From Erysipelotrichaceae bacterium (GTDB lineage: Bacteria > Bacillota_I > Bacilli_A > Erysipelotrichales > Erysipelotrichaceae): a stretch of DNA of 45,362 nucleotides. The notes under the pieces are model-generated. The model had not been told where the DNA came from and searched no databases. It worked only from the letters and a program-made list of their open reading frames with translations. Where the stretch lies: the NCBI GenBank assembly GCA_022767445.1, contig JALENJ010000055.1, positions 1-45,362 of the forward strand, given 5' to 3'. Position 1 is the first letter of the stretch. The number at the start of each line of letters is the position of its first letter. Of this stretch, positions 36,349-38,830 are shown in pieces. The translations under genes and the position numbers were made by a program.

Positions 36349-36371
36349 AAGCATCCTTAGGGATGCTTTTT
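36349..36371 (+). terminator. Terminator of the mutS-uvrA operon
   Basis: AAGCATCC / GGATGCTT stem, loop TTAG, and T5 at 36367-36371. Confidence 0.92.
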
Positions 36372-36460: not shown

Positions 36461-37405
36461 ATGCCGGAACAAAGATATGAAAAGAAAGTGGGTATCCGTG
36501 AACTGGTAAAGTTCTTCAATTTAGAACAGTTAACAGGGAACGATGCTTCATTAGATAGATGGACAGTCGTACAGGATTTGAACCGCCCAGGCTTTGAGCT
36601 TGCCGGTGTATTTAAGAGTGCTGAACCTCGACGTATTATCCTAATCGGTAATAAAGAGAGTGAATATATAAAAACAATGAGTGAGGAGAACCAAAGCGCG
36701 AGATTTCCATTCCTGATGGATGGATTAACGCCTTGTATCATCATCACCAGCAATAACGAAATACCGCCAATTCTAAAAGAAATTGCGATGAAGAATAACT
36801 TCCCAGTATTGCGTACAAAGAATGAAACATATCGTATTACTGCGGATTTAATTACATACCTCGATGAAAAACTCGCACCTGCAGATACCATGTCGGGCGT
36901 ACTGATGTCAGTATATGGTAAGGGTGTCATGATCCTTGGTGAAAGCGGAATGGGTAAATCAGAAACAGCCTTAGACCTAATCCGTGATGGACAGGTATTA
37001 GTCTCAGATGATCGTGTGGATGTACAACACATTCACAACAGTATCTATGGACATGCCCCAGCCATTACCAAAGGACTACTAGAGATACGTGGTATCGGTG
37101 TCATTAACGTAGAGAAGATGTTTGGAGCCTCAGCAGTCGCAGACCGCTCAGAAGTCAATCTCGTAATACGCCTTGTGCCATTTGAAAGAGATGCTGAATA
37201 CAATCGTATAGGGGATGAAACCCAGCGTTATACAAAGATACTCGGTGTACTTGTGCCAACGATTATCATTCCAGTCAGTGCTGGTAGAAATACCTATGTA
37301 CTGGTAGAGTCTGCAGTCACAAACTTCAAATTACAAGAAGCTGGATATAACGGAGCTGCGGAAATTCGCGAACGATTCAGTCGCTTAGCAGGAAAGGATG
37401 AATAA
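36461..37405 (+). CDS. hprK: HPr kinase/phosphorylase
   Basis: 314 residues. Walker A GESGMGKSE at 160-168 and the family signature LLEIRGIGVINV (206-217) are clear, with SDDRVD and AGRNT further along. It phosphorylates HPr on Ser46 in response to glycolytic state and thereby drives CcpA-dependent catabolite repression, matching the cre-like site at 13529-13542. The residue 15 positions before the Walker A loop, a catalytic His (His138) in B. subtilis HprK, is Ser145 here (TMSGVLMSVYG). Lys166 and the Asp pair at 183-184 are kept. Phosphorylase activity may be altered; this is inference. GGAGG precedes the ATG. Confidence 0.93.
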   Translation: MPEQRYEKKVGIRELVKFFNLEQLTGNDASLDRWTVVQDLNRPGFELAGVFKSAEPRRIILIGNKESEYIKTMSEENQSARFPFLMDGLTPCIIITSNNEIPPILKEIAMKNNFPVLRTKNETYRITADLITYLDEKLAPADTMSGVLMSVYGKGVMILGESGMGKSETALDLIRDGQVLVSDDRVDVQHIHNSIYGHAPAITKGLLEIRGIGVINVEKMFGASAVADRSEVNLVIRLVPFERDAEYNRIGDETQRYTKILGVLVPTIIIPVSAGRNTYVLVESAVTNFKLQEAGYNGAAEIRERFSRLAGKDE

Positions 37406-37407
37406 GT

Positions 37408-38781
37408 ATGACATTTTTCCCCGATGATTTTACGCTATTTGCGATAGGGAGTTTCCGTGTACCAAGCTACGTAGTCGCAGTACTAGTAGGATTAGTCATT
37501 TCCCTATTGATACTCACAAAAGAAAACAAGAAACACGGCTATCGAAAGATAGACACATTAGAACTATTTATCGTTTGTATGATTACAGGCTTCCTATTTA
37601 GCCGTCTATTCTGGGTATTAGGAAACCTAGCAGAGTACATGCGTTATACCCCATATATCTTCCTGGTTACGGATGGAGGATATGATGCGACTGGTGGATT
37701 AATTGGTGTTGCGTTAGGAACATGGTTATATACCAGAGGACATCACATGAGTTGGCGAAGAGCCCTCGATATGACAGCTCCACTAACATTGTTGTTAATC
37801 ACAATTGCTAGAGTTGGACGAGTGATGCGTGAGGATACACTCTGGTTTGTCATCGCACTCGACTTTCTTGGATTCATCATAATCTGGTTTGAAATCCATC
37901 GCTACCGCGAGGGAAGAAGACGTGGTGAGACAGCAGCCACAACATTTATGTGGTTTGGTCTAGTTACGTTCTTAACCAATATTATGAAATGGGATATGCG
38001 TAGTACACATGATGTCATCATGGCTGGACTATGTGTTGTGATTGCCCTAATTGGATACATCTACCTACATACACATCCATTGGATCGACCTGTTATTCTA
38101 TTCGACTTAGATGGAACACTGATGGATAGTCGACGCATGGTATTGTTGTGTTTTGGATATTTCTTCAAGAAATACAGCAACATCCGCAACTTTACAATCG
38201 ATAAACAACGTAAAGTATTTATTCAACCACTACGAACATCCTTCAAGGAGTTCTTCCCTGAGCAGGATGATGAAAAACTAGCAGAAGAATATCGTACATA
38301 TCAAGCATCCTTCTCATGGTCTAATGATGTAACACTATTCCCACATACAGAACAAGTACTACACGAACTATGGGAAGATGGATACAAACTTGGTATCGTA
38401 TCTTCACGTCTTACAGAATCATGCGATTCATGGTTGAGACAATTTAGATTGACATACTTCGATGTTGTGATTGGACGTGACCAATATAAACGTGGAAAAC
38501 CTTCATCAGAAGGAATCCTGTATGCATGTCAAAGACTCAAACAAGGACATGATAACTGCATCTATATCGGAGATAGTAAGTCAGATATCGAAGCAGCGAA
38601 GAACGCAGGATGTTATGCGATAGGATTCTATCCAAAACGCAACGATCCAACAGCAGATGAACGCGATAAGTTGAAGCTTGGCGAACTTGAAGCCGCAAAA
38701 CCAAACGCAATCATCGGAGATCTAACAGAATTACTAGATATCCTAAAAGAAACACATGGATGGACCTACGAAAAGATGTAA
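37408..38781 (+). CDS. Fusion of a degenerate Lgt-like membrane domain with a PpaX-like HAD phosphatase
   Basis: 457 residues in one open frame. Residues 1-~222 have about seven membrane spans and the outline of prolipoprotein diacylglyceryl transferase (Lgt). However, the catalytic HGGL motif is TGGL (95-98), and the R-x-G-N-x-x-N region is ARVGRVMRED (134-143), losing both asparagines. Residues 228-457 are a HAD hydrolase with DLDGT (233-237), VSS, and GDSKSDIEAA. The match is to PpaX, the pyrophosphatase that hydrolyses PPi made by HPr phosphorylase. In B. subtilis hprK, lgt and ppaX are near neighbours in one operon, so the two downstream genes appear fused here. The phosphatase half looks active. 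It follows hprK by 2 bp. Confidence 0.82.
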   Translation: MTFFPDDFTLFAIGSFRVPSYVVAVLVGLVISLLILTKENKKHGYRKIDTLELFIVCMITGFLFSRLFWVLGNLAEYMRYTPYIFLVTDGGYDATGGLIGVALGTWLYTRGHHMSWRRALDMTAPLTLLLITIARVGRVMREDTLWFVIALDFLGFIIIWFEIHRYREGRRRGETAATTFMWFGLVTFLTNIMKWDMRSTHDVIMAGLCVVIALIGYIYLHTHPLDRPVILFDLDGTLMDSRRMVLLCFGYFFKKYSNIRNFTIDKQRKVFIQPLRTSFKEFFPEQDDEKLAEEYRTYQASFSWSNDVTLFPHTEQVLHELWEDGYKLGIVSSRLTESCDSWLRQFRLTYFDVVIGRDQYKRGKPSSEGILYACQRLKQGHDNCIYIGDSKSDIEAAKNAGCYAIGFYPKRNDPTADERDKLKLGELEAAKPNAIIGDLTELLDILKETHGWTYEKM

Positions 38782-38791
38782 TACAAAGTAT

Positions 38792-38830
38792 AACGGAAGT
38801 CACTCAGATAATGAGCAACTTCCGTTTTTT
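38792..38830. terminator. Terminator between the convergent Lgt-HAD and glycosyltransferase genes
   Basis: AACGGAAGT / ACTTCCGTT stem with an inner CTCA/TGAG pairing, then T6 at 38825-38830. It is strong for the plus strand and weaker for the minus strand. Confidence 0.88.

Follow-up and report, generated by a model that had tools for sequence, protein, structure and literature searches.

What is the role of a protein that joins, in one reading frame directly downstream of hprK, an Lgt-like membrane domain to a HAD phosphatase? We addressed this question in a contig of an Erysipelotrichaceae bacterium (GenBank assembly GCA_022767445.1, contig JALENJ010000055.1), whose 45,362 nucleotides are referred to here as the window. 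An earlier reading of the DNA, made without database searches (the sequence-only reading), had proposed the fusion and a loss of Lgt residues.

One frame joins an Lgt-like membrane half to a HAD phosphatase

The fusion gene is a forward-strand open reading frame of 457 codons that begins with ATG, contains no internal stop or frame break, and is separated from hprK by 2 nt. The features of the locus are listed below.

36349..36368, forward strand: terminator-like hairpin 5' of hprK
36461..37405, forward strand: hprK, bifunctional HPr kinase/phosphorylase (HprK/P), 314 aa, directly 5' of the fusion gene (TIGR00679, 334 bits, cut-off 240)
37408..38781, forward strand: fusion gene, degenerate Lgt-like membrane half plus HAD phosphatase half, 457 aa
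37408..38073, forward strand: pseudo-Lgt half, residues 1-222, seven predicted transmembrane (TM) helices (Pfam LGT, Foldseek match to 5azb, loop charges, dN/dS)
37612..37686, forward strand: residues 69-93 with W69, Y80, Y83, D89 and D93, spanning the end of TM2, arm-2 and the start of TM3, at the predicted outer face
37810..37839, forward strand: residues 135-144 with R135 (R143 in E. coli Lgt), R138 (N146 in E. coli Lgt) and a short loop in place of the periplasmic head and what remains of the signature motif in other Lgts
38092..38778, forward strand: PpaX-like HAD phosphatase half, residues 229-457 (HAD_2, PpaX as best NCBIfam model, VIA-align match to 2ah5)
38792..38826, no strand: 15-bp terminator-like hairpin 3' of the fusion gene, between convergent genes

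The flanking hairpins suggest that hprK and the fusion gene form a two-gene unit, with the caveat that terminator-like hairpins are no more numerous than in shuffled sequence.

Both halves were recognized by profile and by fold, as the sequence-only reading had anticipated. Residues 10-142 match Pfam LGT (PF01790) with 68.4 bits, above the gathering cut-off of 24.9, and residues 230-406 match HAD_2 with 146.3 bits. In an AlphaFold2 model computed from the window protein and nine relatives (mean pLDDT 82.4), seven helices (residues 20-42, 47-72, 94-112, 116-136, 145-163, 174-193 and 203-222) run straight into a HAD fold. Foldseek matched this model to E. coli Lgt (5azb; E 1.2e-7, TM 0.55 by target), and VIA-align matched the HAD half to 2ah5 (Z 23.9, 2.2 Å over 202 residues), which together with the HAD_2 score identifies a HAD subfamily IA phosphatase. 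Run with the whole model, VIA-align listed HAD matches only; the Lgt fold match is that of Foldseek and of sequence. Homology with E. coli Lgt predicts an N-out/C-in orientation for the membrane half, and the most basic loop, HRYREGRRRG, falls on the predicted inside. Because of this topology and the basic inner loop, we infer that the HAD half lies inside.

A missed stop or frame error at junction residues 222-228, named in the sequence-only reading as a way in which the fusion could be spurious, was looked for and excluded, since 28 other genomes of the window's genus have the same single frame. This genus, a grouping made by the search tool, includes Lactimicrobium massiliense and MAGs labelled Solobacterium; 70 of its genomes were searched.

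Loss of the Lgt active site and a second lgt

We built an alignment of fused Lgts, 31 of them degenerate and 35 intact, together with 38 standalone ones. Six residues are essential in E. coli Lgt (Y26, H103, R143, N146, G154 and R239; PMC13251419, PMC4728403), and G99, G142, G145, Y235 and R246 are also needed (PMC4728403, PMC13251419). The window protein keeps two of the six (Y26 as Y21 and R143 as R135), replaces three (H103 by T95, N146 by R138 and R239 by T187) and lacks G154, which is deleted together with E151, the surrounding segment and the periplasmic head; the TM4-TM5 loop has 8 residues in the window model, compared with about 34 in an intact fused relative. G99 (G91), G145 (G137) and the equivalents of G98, R73 and D129 persist, and G142, Y235, E243 and R246 are changed to A134, F183, N191 and K194, respectively. 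The protein thus shares with E. coli Lgt (PF01790/TIGR00544; 5azb, 5azc) the seven-helix fold, the order of TM helices and several conserved positions, but has lost much of the active site and, unlike E. coli Lgt, carries a C-terminal HAD domain. It scores 48.0 bits against the TIGR00544 equivalog cut-off of 118.9. Judged by these residues, the membrane half of the window protein cannot function as an ordinary Lgt. Restoration of its active site by structural alignment, named in the sequence-only reading as something that would refute the loss, was tested by sequence and does not hold.

The degeneration is common to the relatives. G154 is absent from all 31 degenerate copies. The copies found in 29 genomes of the window's genus have another residue at N146 and have lost Y235, E243 and, for the most part, R246. 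R239 is kept in 22 of the 31 and changed in the window's own lineage. Both the fusion and the lost residues are therefore conserved in relatives, a check that the sequence-only reading had asked for. That reading had pointed to loss of the HGGL His and of the asparagines in the signature. The His and two Asn are indeed changed, but the damage is far larger, and the His is not diagnostic. We dropped its loss as a sign of a dead Lgt: Gln, Tyr and His vary at this position among catalytically complete fused Lgts, and the second Lgt of the window genome itself has Tyr there.

This second lgt (C17:24575-25294, 191.6 bits) supplies the additional gene that the sequence-only reading held necessary for true lipoprotein acylation. 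Its product falls just under the TIGR00544 cut-off (105.6 against 118.9). All 29 congener genomes with a degenerate fusion also encode a full-length standalone Lgt of another subtype, as do 64 of the 70 genomes of the genus overall, and congeners that lack the membrane half yielded no Lgt other than the standalone one. Genera g16, g18, g32, g33, g50 and g56, in which the fused Lgt is degenerate or missing, likewise carry a standalone lgt. The standalone proteins form one clade (support 0.967) separate from the fused proteins; their signature is of the GCFxAGCCYG subtype, that of the fused proteins of the GNFxNxE type. Where E. coli Lgt has N146, the standalone Lgt has Cys, and one mycobacterial paralogue with this variant is presumed to have low activity (PMC13251419), so that the standalone Lgt is a putative active enzyme. 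LspA is encoded in the window genome, and the lipoprotein pathway remains.

About 840 bp upstream of the standalone lgt is a tmRNA gene (tag ANRTNSFAFAA), and an rpiB/lacB-like gene lies downstream of it (L001:296-649, 1489-2262; G000:C17); mobile elements often make use of tmRNA genes as sites. Elsewhere in relatives there are short, divergent Lgt-like membrane ORFs of 222-284 aa (L123, L124 and L125, in G189, G187 and G179).

Descent from an intact Lgt-phosphatase fusion

Throughout most of the window's family, the gene after hprK encodes an Lgt::HAD fusion of about 485 aa with a complete Lgt half, and these proteins link the window protein by descent to Lgt. The 35 intact fused Lgts represent about the same number of genera and carry the GRWGNFxNxExxG-type signature as well as R239, E243 and R246; the one tested by model, that of Erysipelothrix urinaevulpis (L174), passes TIGR00544 (218.5 against 118.9). 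Intact fusions, which also occur in other families of Bacilli, share with the window protein the gene position, the order of halves and a predicted cytoplasmic HAD. They differ in that the Lgt half is catalytically complete in those examined and that no standalone lgt of the 0.967-support clade was found together with them. Among the 70 genomes of the window's genus, none has an intact fused Lgt and 29 have the degenerate fusion; of the other congener loci examined, hprK is followed by a lone HAD in 21 and is itself fused to the HAD in three, so that at least 24 congeners are without the membrane half. On this comparison of sequences, the window form is a derived state that followed Lgt replacement, and the family-wide fusion is usually catalytically complete.

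The fusion also fits the locus, as the sequence-only reading had argued: Sporosarcina and Paenibacillus have hprK, lgt and ppaX as separate genes in that order. In the sister family (f2), the gene after hprK is an lgt of its own; genus g69 is the exception, with both halves in one frame of about 505 aa. Further Lgt::HAD fusions were seen in other families of the class, namely in G027 and G031 (f2, g69), G592, G615 and G535 (f14), G461 and G355 (f3), and G475 and G471 (f8), some of them longer, with frames of 550-667 aa.

On the HprK tree, the lineages whose fused Lgt is degenerate or missing fall into more than one group. Because they are scattered, Lgt replacement appears to have been repeated, and the standalone gene was probably passed on horizontally; this suggestion is provisional, as the trees are of single genes, and the degenerate g32 and g56 copies take no settled place in them. 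The HprK and Lgt trees conflict over the sister family f2, which falls outside the fused type in one and within it in the other, and therefore one fusion with later splits and several separate fusions both fit.

Two genera show other outcomes. Genus g5 (L244 and L245; G030 and G008) presents a mirror image, with a complete Lgt half and a HAD shrunk to about 100 aa that lacks the DxD motif; no second Lgt was found in G008. In genus g18 (L250:2482-3711, L252:2715-3893), the HAD is preceded by a membrane segment of about 185 aa that is barely Lgt-like, with only a SWRALD-like motif.

A proposed membrane-tethered phosphatase beside HprK and its alternatives

The HAD half retains its catalytic residues: motif I D233/D235, motif II S332, motif III K364 and motif IV D389/D393. 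All 90 proteins compared, whatever their architecture, share D233, D235, K364, D389 and D393, and position 332 is Ser or Thr. PpaX is the best NCBIfam HAD model for each of the four proteins tested (window, 108.7 bits; intact fusion, 152.6; free HAD, 145.8; HprK::HAD, 159.1), all of which stay below the cut-off of 218 of this equivalog model (NF009804); the lgt-adjacent PpaX genes of Sporosarcina (290.8) and Paenibacillus (244.1) pass it. The window HAD thus resembles PpaX (YvoE) in its place after hprK and lgt, its complete motifs and its best-scoring family, but differs in falling under the curated cut-off and in being fused to a membrane domain, and pyrophosphate is its putative substrate. 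A passage of PMC2937029, citing Mijakovic 2002, proposes that B. subtilis YvoE removes pyrophosphate made by HprK/P.

Among the relatives examined that keep the HAD, it lies directly after hprK or is fused to it, with short spacers in g18. The HprK::HAD fusions of congeners have the same HAD type, locus and genus as the window but join HprK directly, with no Lgt half; they measure 537-539 aa (G297, G295 and G219; L054, L055 and L056). HPr itself, with GLHARPA and MKSIMG motifs that hold the His and Ser sites, is encoded on contig C5 of the window genome. Two further ORFs there are of DHHA2 type, family II pyrophosphatase-like (G000:C31:34342 and C73:4685; 538 and 553 aa); they are longer than plain family II pyrophosphatases and possibly of regulatory-domain types. 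Because of these two ORFs, bulk pyrophosphate removal need not rely on the fusion gene.

We consider it likely that a bifunctional Lgt-PpaX ancestor passed its Lgt role to an unlinked lgt, and that the remaining pseudo-enzyme anchors a PpaX-like pyrophosphatase serving HprK/P. The ancestor, encoded directly after hprK, would have combined an active Lgt with a PpaX-like HAD phosphatase. An unlinked lgt of the other subtype would then have taken over lipoprotein acylation in the genus ancestor and, independently, in a few further lineages, after which the fused Lgt half would have lost the catalytic signature segment and the periplasmic head and stayed as a seven-helix membrane domain. Today the pseudo-Lgt most likely tethers the cytoplasmic phosphatase at the membrane near HprK/P. 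As HprK/P dephosphorylates Ser-P-HPr by phosphorolysis, making pyrophosphate, the HAD would remove this product and push the switch towards dephosphorylated HPr. A phospholipid may still sit in the entry site of the pseudo-Lgt, where equivalents of Y26, G98/G99 and R143 are kept.

Both halves are under selection. In the three closest pairs of relatives, dN/dS of the Lgt and HAD halves is 0.052 and 0.053, 0.030 and 0.027, and 0.055 and 0.022; between the window and G085, its nearest relative, divergence is too great for reliable dS. Relative to the HAD half, the pseudo-Lgt changes faster (difference ratio about 1.3) than active fused Lgts do (about 0.85), as expected because catalysis was lost. 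Several residues are conserved in the degenerate copies and not in the active ones: W69, Y80, Y83 and D89 (in 24-26 of 26 core relatives), D93 (D in 20 of 26), and R138, the N146 position, which is Arg or Lys in all 26. At the level of sequence, the pseudo-Lgt half is a domain under its own constraint and not in neutral drift. Because congeners in several distinct branches of the genus have dropped it, we regard it as useful rather than essential, and anchoring itself is not essential, given the at least 24 congeners that do without.

The strong purifying selection and the clade-specific residues at the predicted outer face, along with the Arg or Lys at the N146 position and the largely retained equivalents of the phosphatidylglycerol-entry residues Y26, G98/G99 and R143, could also indicate a receptor. 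The pseudo-Lgt would bind a ligand, such as phosphatidylglycerol or another envelope lipid or precursor, and regulate the cytoplasmic HAD and, via pyrophosphate and phosphate, the HprK/P switch. We think this unlikely, if worth retaining: the conservation may equally be structural, the membrane half has repeatedly been lost in close relatives, R239 is gone in the window's own lineage, and no precedent was found in the literature searched. More doubtful is a transmembrane sensor in which binding of phosphatidylglycerol or another envelope component at the outer face tunes the cytoplasmic pyrophosphatase by HprK/P and links membrane lipid state to carbon catabolite control.

Absence of the membrane half from separate branches, and its barely recognizable g18 counterpart, might instead mark it as a passive remnant that decays neutrally and is kept only because the HAD lies downstream in frame. 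This is improbable and largely refuted by dN/dS of 0.03-0.055 in three separate close pairs, HAD-like in two of them, and by some 220 residues maintained without stop or frameshift in 29 genomes.

Lgt releases glycerol-1-phosphate, PGP-like HADs are broad, and the HAD-Lgt fusion occurs in most of the family. The HAD might accordingly act on another phosphate, for example this product, in what was once a lipid-recycling enzyme. We give this very little credence: glycerol-1-phosphate would be freed at the outer face, on the opposite side from the predicted inner position of the HAD; the HAD is kept even with a dead or absent Lgt half, staying by hprK or fusing to HprK; and the reverse case, an intact Lgt half with a dead HAD, occurs too. 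Least credible is a fusion still active as an Lgt by a different mechanism, with two Lgts on different substrates; the persisting R143, Y26 and G98/G99 equivalents and the R239 of 22 degenerate copies speak for it, but E. coli Lgt needs each of N146, G154 and R239 (PMC13251419), which are changed or deleted in the window protein, G154 is missing from every degenerate copy, and no Lgt but the standalone one was found in congeners without the membrane half.

The literature searched, mostly outside subscription journals, held no description of an Lgt-phosphatase fusion, of an Erysipelotrichaceae Lgt or of an Lgt pseudo-enzyme. The component families are known; an anchor made from a retired Lgt appears to be new, and with it a membrane pseudo-enzyme derived from Lgt is documented. 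For annotation, the case is a warning, as a significant LGT match may pass for an acylating Lgt even though its residues rule this out. Within one order, separate genes, active fusion, dead-Lgt fusion, freed phosphatase and HprK-joined phosphatase are all alive, and genus g5 adds the mirror image of a live Lgt half with a dead phosphatase. This series provides natural controls for what membrane attachment gives a pyrophosphatase in the HPr switch.
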